A stretch of DNA of 64,000 nucleotides from Salinicola sp. GTDB taxonomy: Bacteria; Pseudomonadota; Gammaproteobacteria; Pseudomonadales; Halomonadaceae. Positions 24,916 through 34,655 of this stretch are shown here, one piece after another. The notes under the pieces were generated by a model. It was not told the origin of the DNA, searched no databases, and saw only the letters and a program-made list of their open reading frames with translations. The position numbers and the translations under genes are program-made. Location: assembly GCA_002695065.1 (NCBI GenBank), contig NZNW01000065.1, positions 1-64,000 of the forward strand, in the 5' to 3' direction. Position 1 is the first letter of the stretch; each line of letters begins with the position of its first letter.

Positions 24916-25593
24916 TCAGCGACGCCCGTTGGCATAGCGCGATGCCATGACCGGAATCGTCCCCAGGTTCTGCCGTGCCCAGTTGGTGGCCTGGATGCGG
25001 TTGTGGACGTTGATCTTGCGGAACAGGTTGTAAAGGTGCGACTTCACCGTGTGTTCGCTGACGAACAGCTTTTCCGCGATCTCCGTATTGCTCGCACCGG
25101 AGACCAGCAGCGTGACGATCTCCAGTTCTCTCCGTGTCAGACCGCACACGGGCCGATAGGTATTGACCTGTTGACGACGATAGAAGTCGATCAACATCGC
25201 CGAGAGCGGCCTGGAAATCCAGAGTTCTCCGCCGAGAAGTTTGATGATTCCCTTGCAGATGAGTTCGAGGCTGTCCTGCCGATAGAACACCCCACGGAGG
25301 TGTATGCCGATCAACAGTTCCATGACCTGCTTGTTGTCGCGGACGTTGAAAGCCGACAGGATGATGGCATCGTTCTCCTCGGCTCTGGTGTTCCAGGCCA
25401 GTAGGTCTTTCTCCTGAACGTGATCTCCATCCAGGAGTACGAGTACCCTACTGCCCTCGGGTACCGGAAAACGATCCTGTGGACTGAGTGCCGAGACCCG
25501 GCAACCCGTTTTCTGGTGTATGTAATCCAAAAATAGTACGGACTGTGAGTTACAATCCGTAACAAGAACGATGTCGGTGTGTTCAGTGTTCAT
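24916..25593 (-). CDS. LuxR-family regulator resembling CsgD
   Basis: 225-aa transcription regulator. The C-terminal LuxR helix-turn-helix (about residues 150-205) reads LTRRELEIVTLLVSG, SNTEIAEKLFVSEHTVKSHL and INVHNRIQATNWA. The N-terminal domain looks like the degenerate receiver of CsgD, including a GVFYRQDSLELICKGI segment in the same position as GVFY in CsgD. In enterics CsgD controls curli and cellulose, but no curli or cellulose genes occur in this window. GC is visibly lower than in its neighbours and the 434-nt upstream region is AT-rich, suggesting silencing by a nucleoid protein or acquisition by transfer. AAGGGA precedes the ATG. Confidence 0.75.
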   Translation of the reverse strand: MNTEHTDIVLVTDCNSQSVLFLDYIHQKTGCRVSALSPQDRFPVPEGSRVLVLLDGDHVQEKDLLAWNTRAEENDAIILSAFNVRDNKQVMELLIGIHLRGVFYRQDSLELICKGIIKLLGGELWISRPLSAMLIDFYRRQQVNTYRPVCGLTRRELEIVTLLVSGASNTEIAEKLFVSEHTVKSHLYNLFRKINVHNRIQATNWARQNLGTIPVMASRYANGRR

Positions 25594-28705: not shown

Positions 28706-29557
28706 ATGCTTGCCTACCAGCACGCTTATCACGCCGGCAATTTTGCCGATGTTCACAAGCATCTCGGCCTGAGCCGACTCGTCTCGGCCATGATGCGCAA
28801 ATCCTCCGCCATCAGCTTCGTCGATACCCATGCCGGCCGCGGTCTCTATCCGTTGGCTGCGGCGGAGACGCAGAAGCTTGGCGAGTTTCGTGACGGTGTC
28901 GAGCGACTGTGGCAGAGGCGTCGCAGCTTTGCCGCCGAGTCGCCCATCGGGGAGTGGCTGGCCTCACTGGCGACACTGCAGTCTCGGTCCGAGCTGAGTC
29001 GCTACCCCGGTTCTCCCTGGTGGCTGGGTTCGACGCTGCGCTCCCAGGACCGGCTGACGCTGTTCGAGCTGCACCCGGGCGAGCACCGCCACTTGTCGGA
29101 TCAGGCGGTATCGCCCCACGCTGGCGTGCAGCGCCGACATGCGGACGGACTCAAGGGACTGGTAAAGCTGGTGCCGGTCTCCACGCCGCGCTTGTGCGTG
29201 TTGATCGATCCCAGCTACGAGAGGAAAGACGAATACCAGGAGGTCGCCGAGACGCTGATTCAAGTCGTGCGAAAGGTGCGGCATGCGGTGGTGTTGGTCT
29301 GGTATCCGCTGCTGCCGGCCGGACGCCATCGACTGCTGCTGGATACGCTGAGACAGGCCGGCGTTCCCAAGCTGTGGCGCAGCGAGTTGAAAATCCGTGA
29401 ACCGGTCGCCGAGCGTGGCATGTACGGCAGCGGTTTATTGATGCTCAACCCGCCCTGGCAACTCGACACCGAGCTCGACCAGGCTTTCACCACGCTGGCC
29501 TCGGTGCTGGCCGATGGCGGGAGCCACCACGGCGAATGGTGGACCGACGAGACCTGA
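28706..29557 (+). CDS. rlmJ: 23S rRNA (adenine2030-N6)-methyltransferase RlmJ
   Basis: 283-aa SAM-dependent methyltransferase. The N-terminus LAYQHAYHAGNFADVHKH is highly characteristic. YVD-type THAGRGLYPL is the SAM region and LIDPSYERKDEYQEV holds the catalytic DPxY-like motif. It starts 15 nt after the preceding terminator, so it probably has its own promoter overlapping that hairpin or reads through from it. Length is close to the E. coli protein (about 280 aa, from memory). Confidence 0.93.
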   Translation: MLAYQHAYHAGNFADVHKHLGLSRLVSAMMRKSSAISFVDTHAGRGLYPLAAAETQKLGEFRDGVERLWQRRRSFAAESPIGEWLASLATLQSRSELSRYPGSPWWLGSTLRSQDRLTLFELHPGEHRHLSDQAVSPHAGVQRRHADGLKGLVKLVPVSTPRLCVLIDPSYERKDEYQEVAETLIQVVRKVRHAVVLVWYPLLPAGRHRLLLDTLRQAGVPKLWRSELKIREPVAERGMYGSGLLMLNPPWQLDTELDQAFTTLASVLADGGSHHGEWWTDET

Positions 29558-29590
29558 CGGCGCCACCCGGCGCCGTCATCCTGCTGCTTT

Positions 29591-29625
29591 CGTAGCCCGT
29601 AGCCCGTAGCCCGTAGCCCGTAGCC
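29591..29625. repeat. Five tandem copies of a 7-bp repeat (CGTAGCC)
   Basis: CGTAGCC occurs five times without interruption, followed by degenerate CTAGCC copies up to about 29649. It fills the gap between the rlmJ and ggpPS 3' ends (convergent genes), a place where slippage would be harmless. Confidence 0.9.
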
Positions 29626-29649: not shown

Positions 29650-31929
29650 TCAGACCAGATCGGTGGTGGGATTGGCCGGGCTTTCGGTGCCTTCGGGTTC
29701 CTGGCCCTGGATGGCGGCGATGAATTCGTCGCCCCAGCGTCGGATGTCGTTGTAGCTGACGATGTCGTTCAACTGGCGCAGGCGTGCCTCCGCTTCCGCG
29801 CGAGGCAGGTTCAGGGCCAGATAGCAGGTCCGGGCCAGATCGTGAAGGTCGTGCGGGTTGGTCAGGATCGCGCCCTTCAACTCCGCCGCCGCACCGGCGA
29901 ACTCCGACAGCACCAGCACGCCGCAGCCCTGGGTCATGCCCTGGGTGGCGGCGAACTCCTTGGCGACCAGGTTGAGGCCGTCACGCAGCGGCGTTATCCA
30001 CATCACGTCGGCCATGGCGTACCAGGCGACGACCTCCTCGAACGGGAATCCACGGAAGTAGAACTGGACCGGCGTCCAGCCCACGTCGGCGAAGCGACCG
30101 TTGATATGACCGATGGTCTGCTCGATCTGGGTCTGCAACTCGTTGTAGATGGTCATCTCGCGTGCGGCGGGCACGCAGATGCTGACCAGGGTGACCTTGC
30201 CGCGCAGCTCGGGGTTCTCGTCGAGCAGGAGTTCGTAAGCCTGGAGCTTTTCGAGAATGCCCTTGGTGTAATCGAGCCGTTCGACCGACAGGATCAGCTT
30301 GACGCCCTCGAACTCCTGCCGCAGTTCGGCCATGCGCGAACTGGCGCCCTCCTGGTCGAGGGCGTTCCTGATCCGGTTGAGATCCAGCCCCACCGGGTGC
30401 GCGCCGAGCCGCACCACGCGCGAGCCGGTATCGACCGCCGTGGTCATGGTCTCGAGTCCCACCGCGCAGCCGTAGGTCAGGAAGCGCGGCGCGCAGCCCT
30501 GGCGGGACAGCGTGGTCAGCGGGACGACACCGCGGGCGACGTCGACGAAGTTCTCGACCTGGCGCGGAATGTGGAAGGCGACATAGTCGCACTGCAACAG
30601 GCTGCCGATGATCTCGCGGCGCCACGGCAGCACGTTGAACACGTCCGCCGAAGGAAAATAGGTGTGATGGAAGAAGGCGATACGCAGATCGGGACGCATC
30701 TCGCGAAGATAGGCCGGCACCATCCACAGGTTGTAATCGTGAATCCAGATCAGCGCGCCCTCGGCGGCCTCCTCGGCGGTGCGTTCGGCGAAGGCGCGGT
30801 TGACCTCGCAGTAGACTTCCCAATCGTCCTCGCGGAAATGCGCACGCTCCCAGAAGGTGTGCAAGGTCGGCCAGAAGGCTTCCTTGGAGAAGCGCTTGTA
30901 GAAGGTGTCGACCTGGACCTTGGTCAGCGGGACGCGGGCAGCCGTCAGCAGCGGGTACTGCTTGGCATCGACGCTGGTGTGGGTGACGAACTTCTCCTCG
31001 TCCTCCTCCTCGTAGATCGACCACGCGATCCACGACCCGCGCTGGTCGGCGAAGAAGCTCAACAGCGTCGGGATGATGCCGTTGGGCGAGGTCGGACGGC
31101 GGCGCTGGATCTTGCCGTCGACCCGGTACTCCTCGTAAGGCAGGCGGTGGTAGACCATCACCAGCTCGGCCTTGCCGGTCTGGGTCTCGTCGCGGCGGTT
31201 CTCCGCCGCCACGCCATGGGCGCCGAGAAAGCCGAAGTGGGCAAACGCTTCGATGATGCCGGCGCAGCCGGTGTTCTCGGCGTGCATCACCCGCGTCTGG
31301 TTCTGGGTCCGTTCGAGCAGCTTGGGTTCGGATCCGCCGACGCAGACGGACTTGAAACCGGCGGTGAGCATGGCGAGATCGTTCATGGTATCGCCGGCCA
31401 CCAGCACTTCCTCTTCGTCGATCCCGAGCCATTCGACCAGCTTGCGCAGGCTGCTGCCCTTGTTGACGCCTTTCGGCAGGAAATCGAGATAGCGCTCGGC
31501 CGAGTAGAGCATCTCGCAGTCCAGTTCCCGGGCCAGGGCGACCAGGGCCTCGTCCGTGGCCCGCTCTGGCGGGCAGTAATAGGAGCAGCGCCGCAGCTGT
31601 GGTTCGTCCTGGCGCACCACGTCGGGAAAGCGTTGCATCGCGCTGGCGATCCGGGATTCGCCGGGCCAGCGGGAGTCGATCTCGTTCTGCAGCGGCTGGA
31701 TCGGTTGCAGACTGTCACCCAGATAGAGGCTGGCGCCGACATCGGCGACGATGTAGTCCGGCTGCGGCAGCGTCGGGTCGGACAGCAGCGGCAGGATCGC
31801 TTCCAGGCTGCGGCCGCTGATGTAGGCCAGCTCGATGTCCGGGTGCGCGGCGATGGTCTGGTAGAGGCTCAGGCGGGCTTCGGAGTCGCCGCCCAGAAAG
31901 GTGCCGTCGAGATCGGTTGCAAGTAGCAT
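29650..31929 (-). CDS. ggpPS: Bifunctional glucosylglycerol-phosphate synthase/phosphatase (probable)
   Basis: 759-aa fusion. Residues 1-245 or so form a HAD phosphatase of the sucrose-phosphatase type: DLDGT at 6-10, ISGRS, GVNKGSSLRKL and AGDTMNDLAML. The rest is a GT20 glycosyltransferase related to OtsA but with GgpS-like motifs: WIHDYNLWMVPAYLREM, FFHHTYFPSADVFNVLPWR, VERLDYTKGILEKLQAYE and PLRDGLNLVAKEF. Phosphatase-first, synthase-second order matches, from memory, GgpPS of Stenotrophomonas and Pseudomonas, which makes the osmolyte glucosylglycerol from ADP-glucose and glycerol-3-phosphate. Trehalose synthesis is the alternative, but OtsB-OtsA fusions normally have the other order. The adjacent ycaD-like transporter supports glucosylglycerol. 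A DnaA box lies inside at 29994-30002. Confidence 0.78.
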   Translation of the reverse strand: MLLATDLDGTFLGGDSEARLSLYQTIAAHPDIELAYISGRSLEAILPLLSDPTLPQPDYIVADVGASLYLGDSLQPIQPLQNEIDSRWPGESRIASAMQRFPDVVRQDEPQLRRCSYYCPPERATDEALVALARELDCEMLYSAERYLDFLPKGVNKGSSLRKLVEWLGIDEEEVLVAGDTMNDLAMLTAGFKSVCVGGSEPKLLERTQNQTRVMHAENTGCAGIIEAFAHFGFLGAHGVAAENRRDETQTGKAELVMVYHRLPYEEYRVDGKIQRRRPTSPNGIIPTLLSFFADQRGSWIAWSIYEEEDEEKFVTHTSVDAKQYPLLTAARVPLTKVQVDTFYKRFSKEAFWPTLHTFWERAHFREDDWEVYCEVNRAFAERTAEEAAEGALIWIHDYNLWMVPAYLREMRPDLRIAFFHHTYFPSADVFNVLPWRREIIGSLLQCDYVAFHIPRQVENFVDVARGVVPLTTLSRQGCAPRFLTYGCAVGLETMTTAVDTGSRVVRLGAHPVGLDLNRIRNALDQEGASSRMAELRQEFEGVKLILSVERLDYTKGILEKLQAYELLLDENPELRGKVTLVSICVPAAREMTIYNELQTQIEQTIGHINGRFADVGWTPVQFYFRGFPFEEVVAWYAMADVMWITPLRDGLNLVAKEFAATQGMTQGCGVLVLSEFAGAAAELKGAILTNPHDLHDLARTCYLALNLPRAEAEARLRQLNDIVSYNDIRRWGDEFIAAIQGQEPEGTESPANPTTDLV

Positions 31930-32009
31930 GTTTTCCTCCTGTCCGGCCTCTGAGGACCGGGACGATTTTCCCTGCGCGAGCGGTCCGCGCGTTCGTCGAG
32001 TGACGTTGG

Positions 32010-32064
32010 CCAGGGGCTGTTGCCGTTTCGGCGCGGCCGTGCAGGCAACGGCGACAGGCCCTGG
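32010..32064. repeat. Large inverted repeat downstream of the ycaD-like gene
   Basis: An 18-bp stem with two mismatches: CCAGGGGCTGTTGCCGTT (32010-32027) and AACGGCGACAGGCCCTGG (32047-32064), loop 19 nt. It lies 8 nt beyond the ycaD stop with no T run. The end ACAGGCCCTGG also ends the inverted repeat after gyrB (47736-47746). Confidence 0.6.
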
Positions 32065-32071
32065 ATTCGGG

Positions 32072-33367
32072 TCAAGTCTTGCCGGCCATCTCGACGATTC
32101 GCTGGCGTTCGTGCTCTTCGTAGAAACTGGGGTCGGCGAACAGATCCTTCTGTACGTCGTCGTACATCATCTCCAGGGCTTGGCTGCTGGTGGGTGTCAT
32201 GGGTTCGAAATGGGCCGTATCGCCGCTGACCAGCACCGAGACACGACGTCGGCGGTAGATGGCGTAGCCCGCGAGCATCGCCATGACGGCGGCGATATAG
32301 AGCGGCAATCCCTGATTGCCGACGTTATGCATGATCACTCCGGCCAGAATCGGCGCGACGGCACTGCCGGCACCTTGTACCACCAGCATATCAGCTGAAC
32401 CGGCGACGATTTCGTCGGGATGCAGCTGATCGATCAACTGGGCCACGGCGATCGGGTAGATCGAGAACGACAGTCCGCCCCAGATGAAATATAGCCCGAG
32501 TAGCGCCATCTGGTTGGGGGCGAAGGGCATGGCGGCAGCGGCGATCGCAGCCAGGATCACCACACAGGTCATGACCCGGGGGCGATCATGGGTATCGGAG
32601 AAGCGGCCGATCGGTATCTGCAGCAGGGCGCCGCCGACGATGGCGCAGCTCATCACCACGCCGACCCCGGCGACGTCGAAGCCGACACTGCGCGCATACA
32701 CCGGTGTCATCGTCCAGAAAGCCCCCATCGCCAGGCCGGACATCATCGAGGCGGCAACGGCCAGCGGGGCGAATCCCAACAGCGCCTTGAGGCTGCTCTT
32801 GGGGCGGGCGGGGATGACGGGCTGGCTGCGCTTGGTGATCGTGATCGGCAACAGCGCCCAACTGATCAGGATCGACGTCAGCGCGAACAGCAGAAAGCCG
32901 TCCGGGCTATCCAGGCGCAGGATCTGCTGGGCGATGGCCAGCGCCCCCAGATTGACCACCATGTAGATCGCGAAGACCCGGCCCCGCTGGTGGCTGGCAG
33001 CCTGGCTGTTGAGCCAGCTTTCGATCACCGTCATCAGGGTGATGAAGGAGAGCCCATAGATCACCCGCAGGCCCAGCCACACCCAGGGGTTGATGAATAT
33101 CAGGTGAAGCAGCGCAGCCGAGGCGCAGAGCCCGGCACAGAAGGCGAAGGTGCGGATGTGACCCATGCGTTTGATCAGCCGGCCGCTGATCCAGGTGCCG
33201 CCAATGAAGCCGATGAAGTAGCCGGACATGATGATGCCGATCAGGCTGGTCGAGAAGCCTTCGTCGGCGCCACGCAGTGTCAACAGGGTATTGATCAGAC
33301 CGTTGCCGAGCAGCAGTAGCGCCACGCTCCCCAGCAACGCACGAATGGGTCGCAGTAACGACCACAT
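32072..33367 (-). CDS. MFS transporter, YcaD family (possible glucosylglycerol transporter)
   Basis: 431-aa major-facilitator protein with about 12 hydrophobic segments. The N-terminus LLLLGNGLINTLLTLRG, WISGRLIKRMGHIRTF and VIESWLNSQAASHQRGRVFA are YcaD-like. ATG 33367 has AAGGAG 6 nt upstream and fits the family; the frame is open 26 codons further. It is followed on the same strand by ggpPS, 142 nt later. From memory, a ycaD gene sits beside ggpPS in Stenotrophomonas rhizophila and was proposed to move glucosylglycerol. The substrate here is inferred from that context only. Confidence 0.75.
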   Translation of the reverse strand: MWSLLRPIRALLGSVALLLLGNGLINTLLTLRGADEGFSTSLIGIIMSGYFIGFIGGTWISGRLIKRMGHIRTFAFCAGLCASAALLHLIFINPWVWLGLRVIYGLSFITLMTVIESWLNSQAASHQRGRVFAIYMVVNLGALAIAQQILRLDSPDGFLLFALTSILISWALLPITITKRSQPVIPARPKSSLKALLGFAPLAVAASMMSGLAMGAFWTMTPVYARSVGFDVAGVGVVMSCAIVGGALLQIPIGRFSDTHDRPRVMTCVVILAAIAAAAMPFAPNQMALLGLYFIWGGLSFSIYPIAVAQLIDQLHPDEIVAGSADMLVVQGAGSAVAPILAGVIMHNVGNQGLPLYIAAVMAMLAGYAIYRRRRVSVLVSGDTAHFEPMTPTSSQALEMMYDDVQKDLFADPSFYEEHERQRIVEMAGKT

Positions 33368-33503
33368 AGCCTTCTCCTTGCCATCGCTCCAATCAATCCA
33401 TGCAGTAAGCGTGCCGAAGGGGCGGACGATTGCAAAAATCGTCATTATTATAAGATGATATTATCGAATCACGACCACAACCATAACCGAAGTTATTCGA
33501 TGC

Positions 33504-33545
33504 TGTGCACTCCCAGGGTGCACAAAAGCTGACCCGATTCAGCTT
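33504..33545 (-). terminator. Two small hairpins after the lipoate ligase gene
   Basis: AAGCTG (33526-33531) with CAGCTT (33540-33545) and, beyond it on the minus strand, TGTGCAC (33504-33510) with GTGCACA (33518-33524). On the minus strand the first hairpin runs into TTTTG, so it may terminate the lipoate ligase transcript. The second could instead be an operator near the ycaD promoter. Confidence 0.35.
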
Positions 33546-33575
33546 AGCAGTCGTGGGCGAAACCGCCGTGTTGCG

Positions 33576-34655
33576 TCAGGGAACGCGTCGCAACCAGCTA
33601 TCGCTGGAGAATTTGTCGTTGGCCAGGGCATTTGCCCGTTCCAGCTCGTCCAGGGTGAGTGACGCCGGCACCAGGGTAAAGCGCGCGGCGAACGAGTCGA
33701 TCATGCGCTGGATGATCGTCTCGCGCTCGAGACCGGTCTGGCGCCTGAGCGGATCGACCCGCTTGCCGGCACTGGCGGTGCCCTTGTCGGAGAGTTTCTC
33801 GCGCCCGATCCGCAGCACGCGGGTCAGTTTGTCGGCATCGATGTCGTAGGCCATGGTGACGTGATGCAGAACGGCGCCATTGATCCGTTTCTGGGCGGCG
33901 CCGGCGATCTTGCCGCCCGGGGAGGTGATGTCGTTGATCGGCACGTACCAGGCCTTGATGCCCATGTCGCCCAGCGCCTGGATCACCCAGTCGTCGAGAA
34001 AGGCGTAGCTTTCGACGAAGGTGAGCCCCTGGACGAGGGTTTCCGGTACGATCAGCGACCAGGTGATGGTATTGCCCGGCTCGACGAACATGGCGCCGCC
34101 GCCGCTGATGCGCCTGACCACCTCGATACCTTCAGCGGCAGCCGCATCGCTGTCGACTTCGTTGGCCAGCGACTGGAACACGCCGATGATGATGGCGGCG
34201 CGGTCCCACTCCCAGACGCGCAGTGTCGGGCCGCGGCGGCCCTCGGCCACCTCACTGGCCAGCACCTCGTCCAGCGCCATGTGCAGCAGCGGCGATTCCG
34301 GCGCGCGGTGAATCAGGCCGAATTGGTGATCCTGCCAGTCCGAGGTCCGCAAGAGCGCGCGTCGTATCACGGTGGCGATGGCCGGCACGGAGAGCCCGAC
34401 CATCTCGGTCTGCGGTGGCAGCGCGGATTGGATCGTGGCGATCAGGGTGTCGGCAGCGGCATCGACCGGGGCGCCCTCGAGAGCGCGGTCGATCGCTTCT
34501 AGCGCGGTGTCGGGCTCGAGGAAGAAATCCCCGGACAGCTGCACCGACGCCAGTCGCCCGTCGCGGACCGTGACATCCGCCACCAGCAGTTTCCCGCCCG
34601 GCACCTTGTATTCGCCGTGCCGTATCCCCTCGTCGTCGTTGACCACTTCCGACAT
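33576..34655 (-). CDS. Lipoate-protein ligase A family protein with N-terminal accessory domain
   Basis: 359-aa protein. The catalytic BPL/LplA domain (about residues 105-350) has RRISGGGAMFVEPGNTITWS and the lysine motif GGKIAGAAQKRINGAVLHH. Residues 12-75 or so (GEYKVPGGKLLVADVTVRDG, SGDFFLEPDTALEAIDRAL) look like the small accessory domain that lies at the C-terminus of E. coli LplA, so the domain order is permuted. It should attach lipoate or octanoate to lipoyl domains of 2-oxoacid dehydrogenases, or to GcvH. GAGGCGAG precedes the ATG. Confidence 0.82.
   Translation of the reverse strand: MSEVVNDDEGIRHGEYKVPGGKLLVADVTVRDGRLASVQLSGDFFLEPDTALEAIDRALEGAPVDAAADTLIATIQSALPPQTEMVGLSVPAIATVIRRALLRTSDWQDHQFGLIHRAPESPLLHMALDEVLASEVAEGRRGPTLRVWEWDRAAIIIGVFQSLANEVDSDAAAAEGIEVVRRISGGGAMFVEPGNTITWSLIVPETLVQGLTFVESYAFLDDWVIQALGDMGIKAWYVPINDITSPGGKIAGAAQKRINGAVLHHVTMAYDIDADKLTRVLRIGREKLSDKGTASAGKRVDPLRRQTGLERETIIQRMIDSFAARFTLVPASLTLDELERANALANDKFSSDSWLRRVP

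Follow-up and report, generated by a model that had tools for sequence, protein, structure and literature searches.

A glucosylglycerol operon with predicted sigma54 and NtrC-type control elements in Salinicola

The MFS-ggpPS locus and the identity of its enzyme

The stretch of DNA analyzed here, the first 64,000 nucleotides of contig NZNW01000065.1 of a Salinicola sp. assembly (GCA_002695065.1; hereafter, the window), encodes on its minus strand a YcaD-type MFS transporter and, 142 bp downstream, GgpPS, a fused glucosylglycerol-phosphate phosphatase/synthase. The two genes form a predicted operon that very probably serves the synthesis of glucosylglycerol (GG) and that is preceded by conserved elements resembling a sigma54 promoter and an NtrC binding site (Table 1). 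The nearest relatives of the source genome are other Salinicola, with 99% protein identity to S. acroporae and S. lusitanus. The longest open reading frame (ORF) of the MFS gene (457 aa, the form used for the model scans) starts at 33445; the start at 33367, chosen in a previous sequence-only reading of this DNA, is favored by the Shine-Dalgarno sequence in front of it and by the alignment of the related Salinicola loci to this position.

The same reading had described a 759-aa protein with a HAD phosphatase domain first and a GT20 synthase domain second, an architecture borne out by the ORF and by the two Pfam matches. The HAD domain carries the motifs DLDGT (residue 6), KGVNKG (153) and GDTMND (179). 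GgpPS scores 766.3 bits against TIGR02398, the curated model of glucosylglycerol-phosphate synthase, exceeding the cut-off of 569 by almost 200 bits, whereas the OtsA models all remain under their cut-offs (436.4 bits against 564.85 for TIGR02400). The motifs that had been regarded as GgpS-like replacements of those in OtsA, namely HDYNLWMVP (from residue 397) and FFHHTYFPSADVFNVLPWR (from residue 419), are present and separate the fused and unfused GgpS sequences from the other members of GT20. In the columns of E. coli OtsA H133, L135, L154 and P157 (first Met counted), the 27 fused sequences contain N (27), W (27), H (27) and Y (26), and the three unfused GgpS sequences contain N, W and H without the Y; none of the 27 other GT20 sequences has N, W, H or Y at these positions. 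In a tree of the GT20 domain, which includes 57 sequences and from which cyanobacterial GgpS are absent, the 27 fused and three unfused GgpS form a single clade with support of 100/99, and E. coli OtsA is found among the other synthases; the clustering with OtsA that had been named beforehand as a refuting result was not seen. L126 and two further sequences beside the GgpS clade have long branches that may be joined falsely, a caveat that leaves the split of GgpS from E. coli OtsA untouched. In three gammaproteobacterial loci (L151, L152 and L153), ggpP and ggpS are separate neighboring genes, and these unfused versions are sister to the fused clade; the ggpP part of L153 is spread over two separate ORFs.

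The OtsA active-site columns R10 (a gap in one of the non-GgpS sequences), Y77, W86, D131, H155, R263, K268, D362 and E370 are common to GgpS. The column of E. coli R301 (R300 in the literature), which we take to be a contact of the phosphate of glucose-6-phosphate, is Ala in all 30 GgpS sequences, the window included, and Arg in all 27 others, which fits another acceptor. A point that weighs against this argument is that Arg or Lys immediately follows this column in 24 of the 27 fused sequences (Arg in the window) and in one of the three unfused ones, and a phosphate contact may persist through it. Among enzymes that have been put to functional use, the nearest is GgpPS of Azotobacter vinelandii (L059), with 74% identity over residues 1-741: according to titles cited in PMC4390839 and PMC6753628, A. 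vinelandii ggpPS was used for establishing GG synthesis in potato and was expressed in Arabidopsis. The TIGR02398 score, the placement in the GgpS clade and the identity to the A. vinelandii enzyme support the earlier interpretation of the locus as one for GG synthesis, and we consider it very probable that GG is what it makes. A search of the source genome with GgpPS as query revealed no other GT20 protein. On contig C141 (L145), malQ, treY and glgX form a cluster that also includes a partial match to GlgB, and trehalose may be made from alpha-glucan by TreY.

Table 1. Coordinates of the annotated features in the window
Feature	Position	Strand	Basis
ggpPS, fused glucosylglycerol-phosphate phosphatase/synthase, 759 aa	29650..31929	-	ORF; TIGR02398 766 bits vs cut-off 569; tree
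N-terminal HAD (S6PP-type) phosphatase domain, residues 2-234	31228..31926	-	PF05116 196.7 bits; motifs
C-terminal GT20 synthase domain, residues 256-740	29710..31164	-	PF00982 (Glyco_transf_20) 443 bits; tree
YcaD-type MFS transporter gene, 431 aa, first gene of predicted operon	32072..33367	-	models; 79/80 loci
Shine-Dalgarno AAGGAG of MFS gene	33374..33379	-	read in sequence; GGAGA in 16/16 aligned rows
Predicted sigma54 (RpoN) -24/-12 box CGGCACGCTTACTGCA, GG-N10-GC	33401..33416	-	conservation, pattern scans
AT-rich block GATAATATCATCTTATAATAA between dyad and box	33445..33465	-	clade alignment
Predicted NtrC-type dyad GCACCCTGGGAGTGC, 91 bp upstream of -24 GG	33507..33521	-	NtrC consensus, glnA calibration
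rlmJ, flanking gene	28706-29557		family match
Lipoate-protein ligase, flanking gene	33576-34655		family match

A sample of 38 genomes, including the source genome, was searched for ggpPS. Every one of the 17 further genomes of the genus has the gene, which is full-length in 15, truncated at a contig end in one and split over two frames in one; the fused gene occurs in none of the seven genomes from other genera of the family, two of which yield an OtsA-like match with 33-34% identity. In a class-wide sample, the TIGR02398 cut-off is passed in four of 369 genomes, the source genome being one of the four. A scan for relatives in GTDB 220, in which each species was represented by a single genome, yielded 544 related stretches, and the loci counts below refer to the best 80 of these 544, which comprise 15 loci of the Salinicola clade (L022-L036, of which L033 is from a gammaproteobacterium), one of Kushneria aurantia, and the rest mostly from Pseudomonas and Azotobacter. 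An MFS gene on the same strand lies within 600 bp upstream of ggpPS in 79 of the 80 loci, the exception being L099. In 14 of the 15 clade loci, rlmJ is the next gene (L035 is cut by its contig end). The operon is therefore a long-standing resident of this clade. A second set, which consists of 18 genomes of the genus, overlaps in species with the 15 clade loci.

The enzyme/transporter pair is a known kind of locus. The linkage of an MFS gene in several genomes was reportedly noted in a 2008 paper on GgpPS. The sequence-only reading had described the pair as known in Stenotrophomonas and some Pseudomonas, and it is indeed published for S. rhizophila, where ggpS and ycaD bear the neighboring tags DX03_04600 and DX03_04605 and, as a passage of the source has it, are absent from S. 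maltophilia R551-3 and K279a (PMC4101175). Both genes are salt-induced, with 8.3-fold (ggpS) and 7.7-fold (ycaD) increases given for strain DSM14405 in an excerpt of PMC3653106. The window resembles S. rhizophila in that a fused phosphatase-synthase (the fusion is described in a passage of PMC10873239) lies beside a YcaD-type MFS gene; unlike S. rhizophila, the present host is a halophile that also encodes ectoine synthase and glucosylglycerate-type genes. The ggpPS-ggp loci of Marinobacter adhaerens and M. salinexigens similarly combine a fused GgpPS with a halotolerant gammaproteobacterial host that has several other osmolyte routes, but the partner of ggpPS there is a GG phosphorylase (passage in PMC10873239). 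A literature search returned no paper pairing 'glucosylglycerol' with 'Salinicola', and the locus alone is a new host record; the new and directly testable parts are the question of the donor and the predicted nitrogen switch.

Conserved elements upstream of the operon

The predicted sigma54 box has the form GG-N10-GC (consensus from a passage of PMC6296734) and begins 49 bp before the MFS ATG, which would place the transcript start near 33390, with the Shine-Dalgarno sequence downstream. It is the sole match to YGGCACGNNNNYTGCW in the window, with 0.15 expected in shuffles. The dyad is likewise the sole match in the window to GCACY-N5-RGTGC, with zero mismatches and 0.43 expected; this pattern, taken here as the NtrC consensus, was calibrated on glnA. 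In an alignment of the window with the 15 clade loci (16 rows), conservation is highest at the box and is also prominent at the dyad, while the DNA between them drifts. The box is present in 15 of the 15 clade loci, as is the dyad with at most one mismatch (exact in 12), and the gap between the two is 90-91 bp in 13 loci, with 68 and 109 bp in the remaining two. In the second set of 18 genomes, the exact 15-mer core of the box is found in 17, and the single change in L015 keeps the GG-N10-GC form. The AT-rich block, which contains TATAAT, is kept in most clade loci, altered in L033 and L034 and unrecognizable in L032 and L036; it may be a site for a DNA-bending protein, or a -10 element or other part of a second promoter.

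Outside the clade, 62 of the 65 loci could be scanned (two at contig edges and one lacking the MFS gene were left out), with the box required to lie 30-110 bp before the start, to contain GG and GC and to agree with at least 8 of the 12 consensus letters. Such a box was found in 44 of the 62, and the dyad at a gap of 86-95 bp from it is exact in 13 of these 44, has at most one mismatch in 21 and at most two in 34; the spacing, 88-91 bp in most loci, is shared by many Pseudomonas loci. Among 80 rows, which comprise the window and 79 loci (the two at contig edges among them), a dyad with no more than one mismatch occurs within 400 bp in 39 of 60 rows that have a box and in 1 of 20 that have none (Fisher p 3e-6, uncorrected for relatedness).

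The same kind of elements is found upstream of a second osmolyte locus in the source genome. This locus (contig C73; L162 9179-13251) encodes an MPGP-family phosphatase (gpgP), a GpgS-like synthase (best model GpgS, 349 bits, under the cut-off of 700) and a convergent GH13_18-type phosphorylase, and gpgP is preceded by a separate NtrC-type dyad and sigma54 box. Like ggpPS, the gpgP-gpgS genes would provide a nitrogen-free glucoside osmolyte; the synthase belongs to another family and the product is charged. Of 18 gpgP stretches, two without the gene and one with a partial match were set aside, and in the 15 usable ones the box is present throughout and both elements in 13, one stretch having a second, weaker box at 110. 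The positive control, glnA, has the box in 18 of 18 genomes (TGGCACATTCTCTGCA in the source genome) and, if one mismatch is allowed, the dyad in 15. For ectoine synthesis, 18 stretches of 5 kb around ectABC were used, in which EctC was identified by model and the neighboring genes are presumably ectA and ectB; no combined match of box and dyad was found on the coding strand of any of the 18.

A loose search for the combined elements detected 44 matches, spread over 37 loci, in the 260 bp that precede the MFS gene; elsewhere, in 2.17 million strand-bases, it gave 49, a density at which about 0.5 would be expected in the upstream regions. The strict combined pattern occurs at 17 places in 14 of 18 whole genomes: 12 at the MFS-ggpPS operon, three upstream of gpgP and two before other ORFs, which are taken for chance matches; the reversed strict pattern has no match in the 18 genomes. 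In the source genome (4.68 Mb), the MFS-ggpPS operon is the sole strict match, the gpgP box having T where the strict pattern demands C.

Transporter and nucleotide-sugar donor

The sequence-only reading had placed a YcaD-type MFS gene beside ggpPS. The gene is real and lies directly upstream, as in nearly all of the compared loci; its assignment holds in part, given that the YcaD model NF002962 is the best NCBIfam match of the protein but, at 154.9 bits, remains below its cut-off of 361. The protein is hence of the YcaD type and not a proven YcaD, and a search by sequence gave no solved relatives at an E-value of 0.01. It would carry GG across the inner membrane, out being likelier than in. 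We lean slightly towards export because, as published, Stenotrophomonas co-induces the pair and excretes GG; in passages of PMC4390839 and PMC6753628, ycaD of S. rhizophila is described as a candidate GG exporter with characterization pending. In the window, ggpPS has no gene for GG degradation next to it (the 80 loci were not searched for one), and export may therefore be a route of GG disposal. Recapture of leaked GG, to which we give somewhat less than even chances, fits the linkage to synthesis equally well, since sequence cannot tell the direction of transport; the excretion of GG by S. rhizophila while ycaD is induced, the exporter role proposed in passages of the reviews and the gene content next to ggpPS argue against it. 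A GH13_18-like protein (L150/L162; 188 bits against the sucrose phosphorylase model, cut-off 334) was rejected as a linked GG degrader, as it sits by gpgP-gpgS instead, and is more likely to be a glucosylglycerate phosphorylase.

With regard to the donor, GlgC, the enzyme that makes ADP-glucose, reaches its curated cut-off in none of the 18 genomes of the genus. Outside the Salinicola clade it does so in two of 65 genomes with a fused ggpPS: in two of 34 further hosts, both metagenome-assembled genomes (MAGs) of Ectothiorhodospiraceae (L097 and L099), and in none of 31 more, with an E-value limit of 1e-20. Among the genomes with unfused ggpP-ggpS, one of three has GlgC. In the genus, 17 of the 18 genomes have a GalU over its cut-off; in the remaining one it is divided between two frames. 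With GalU present and GlgC not found, UDP-glucose appears a likelier donor than ADP-glucose in this genus, and we regard it, with moderate confidence, as the probable main donor. The assay proposed in the sequence-only reading names ADP-glucose; here we have a reservation, since GlgC is under the cut-off in all genomes of the genus. A precedent is provided by P. aeruginosa, which, as stated in a passage of PMC8084333, has no glgC and whose GlgA glycogen synthase is most active with UDP-glucose; by analogy, we infer that the fused GgpPS may have undergone a similar change or may be promiscuous. L097 and L099 represent a useful contrast for donor specificity, L099 being also the locus without the upstream MFS gene.

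Several observations weigh against UDP-glucose. The absence of GlgC comes in part from draft genomes and MAGs and from a strict cut-off, one Azoarcus genome having a 105-bit match. Moreover, GgpPS of A. vinelandii works in plants, which make ADP-glucose, so that use of this donor is possible. Synechocystis GgpS and GgpP perform the same two reactions as the fused protein but are encoded by two separate genes, with GghA for breakdown (passage in PMC10873239), and GgpS uses ADP-glucose and not UDP-glucose according to an excerpt of PMC6004087. That ADP-glucose is the donor here as well, supplied by an enzyme other than GlgC, is a tentative alternative: the cyanobacterial precedent speaks for it, and against it stands the lack of GlgC at the cut-off in nearly all searched hosts of the fused enzyme. 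The weak GlgC matches in the source genome also offer it little, one being MurU and one, beside rmlD, probably rmlA; another is on contig C134.

Around the operon, a gene farther out than the lipoate-protein ligase is, judging from its sequence, presumably mnmE. A short tandem repeat of GGGCTAC is seen by eye at about 29590-29625, right after the ggpPS stop codon. A CsgD-like LuxR-family regulator is encoded at 24916-25593 of the window on the minus strand (138 bits, under the CsgD cut-off of 250).

A predicted nitrogen input to osmolyte choice

These observations can be combined into a scheme in which the two-gene operon makes 2-O-alpha-glucosylglycerol. By orthology, the GT20 domain would use a nucleotide sugar to glucosylate glycerol-3-phosphate, and the resulting glucosylglycerol-phosphate would be dephosphorylated by the HAD domain. 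Transcription would start from the sigma54 box, with an activator of the NtrC family bound to the dyad, as predicted from the conserved sequences. All 18 genomes of the genus encode RpoN, the source genome included, and the latter contains the genes for NtrC (748 bits, cut-off 558.6), NtrB and GlnA together. We consider it quite likely that a sigma54 promoter drives the operon, and NtrC itself is moderately favored as the activator, although another protein of the NtrC family could take this role. In 20 of the 80 loci, all of them in Pseudomonas (for example, L041 and L056), the opposite strand carries a sigma54-activator-like ORF some 1.5-3.3 kb ahead of the MFS gene. These ORFs presumably resemble PhhR, and the one in L056 adjoins a phhA-like ORF; such a local activator was therefore not adopted as the regulator. 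GG and glucosylglycerate are nitrogen-free, and ectoine contains nitrogen. Most simply, an osmolyte that is tied to salt would, by this prediction, also be placed under a nitrogen signal by NtrC and sigma54, so that the cell would turn to nitrogen-free GG when it is both salt-stressed and short of nitrogen and ectoine becomes too costly. The combination of a GG operon, UDP-glucose as donor, export and sigma54/NtrC control appears likely as a whole.

Several points weigh against this scheme. The published inducer in S. rhizophila is salt, and P. oleovorans makes GG with 3% NaCl; nitrogen is not the variable in the passages cited on either organism (PMC3653106 for the former). In 18 of the 62 non-clade loci the box is missing, including those of Azomonas, Kushneria aurantia and A. 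vinelandii; the last shares the domain order and the upstream MFS gene with the window but differs in the lack of the box and in a best dyad with two mismatches. The MFS start was extrapolated in 14 of these 18, and in 13 of the 14 no box of at least nine letters is found in the region from 400 bp upstream to 60 bp downstream of where the alignment begins, L101 being the one in which this wider search detected it. Dyads weakened to two mismatches occur in some Pseudomonas (for example, P. mendocina L056 and P. oleovorans L078; L071, also P. mendocina, has an exact one). As seen by eye, the pseudomonads, those with boxless loci too, keep a block resembling TTGCCAT-N17-TAGGGT near the start that could be an ordinary promoter. 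The spacing of the elements differs between operons (131-132 or 162 bp at glnA and 55-90 bp at gpgP), four combined matches appear on the other strand of the ectABC stretches at the loose setting, and the loci are related, so that the counts are not independent. The NtrC consensus used here was not found in print by literature search, nor do passages of two papers on NtrC provide it, and the gpgS assignment is a best model match at half its cut-off (349/700 bits).

Accordingly, a plain salt-induced GG operon with a sigma70-type promoter, in which box and dyad are relics or binding sites of another kind, has to be considered. In its favor are the published responses to salt (of ggpS and ycaD in S. 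rhizophila, and of GG formation in P. oleovorans), the TATAAT-containing block retained upstream in most clade loci and the existence of boxless loci. Nevertheless we consider it unlikely, given that a sigma70 scan of 31900-33650 revealed no promoter-like site, that box and dyad stay while the DNA between them diverges, with a spacing shared by many Pseudomonas loci, and that similar elements precede glnA and gpgP. Weakest is the notion, rejected here on the models, the tree and the R301 column, that the fusion protein synthesizes and dephosphorylates trehalose-6-phosphate, or forms some other glucoside: it belongs to the same GT20 family and its top-scoring solved relatives are trehalose-6-phosphate synthases, but the phosphatase half is S6PP-type and the idea is highly improbable.

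Beyond the single operon, the nitrogen scheme can be extended to a regulon of nitrogen-free osmolytes in Salinicola under NtrC and RpoN, in which nitrogen shortage switches on GG and glucosylglycerate but not ectoine, with the GG part present in many Pseudomonas and a GgpPS that uses UDP-glucose; to this wider scheme we give an even chance. 'Glucosylglycerol' and 'RpoN' occur together in five papers, with rpoN appearing once in each, and the one co-mention whose passage was checked is a plasmid table and unrelated. Accumulation of glucosylglycerate under salt and nitrogen starvation is described in a passage of PMC11009771. In M. salinexigens, a carrier of ggpPS, neither NaCl at up to 12% nor heat induced GG, and the authors suggest that the conditions may have been unsuitable (passage in PMC10873239); nitrogen shortage is a natural one to try. 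The GlgC survey, for its part, questions whether ADP-glucose as donor can be carried over from the cyanobacterial to the fused enzyme, which bears on the commercial making of GG. If the regulon exists, it could explain why M. salinexigens makes no GG under salt or heat alone, would offer a condition for GG induction in heterotrophs and would tie the choice of osmolyte to the nitrogen supply via a named regulator.

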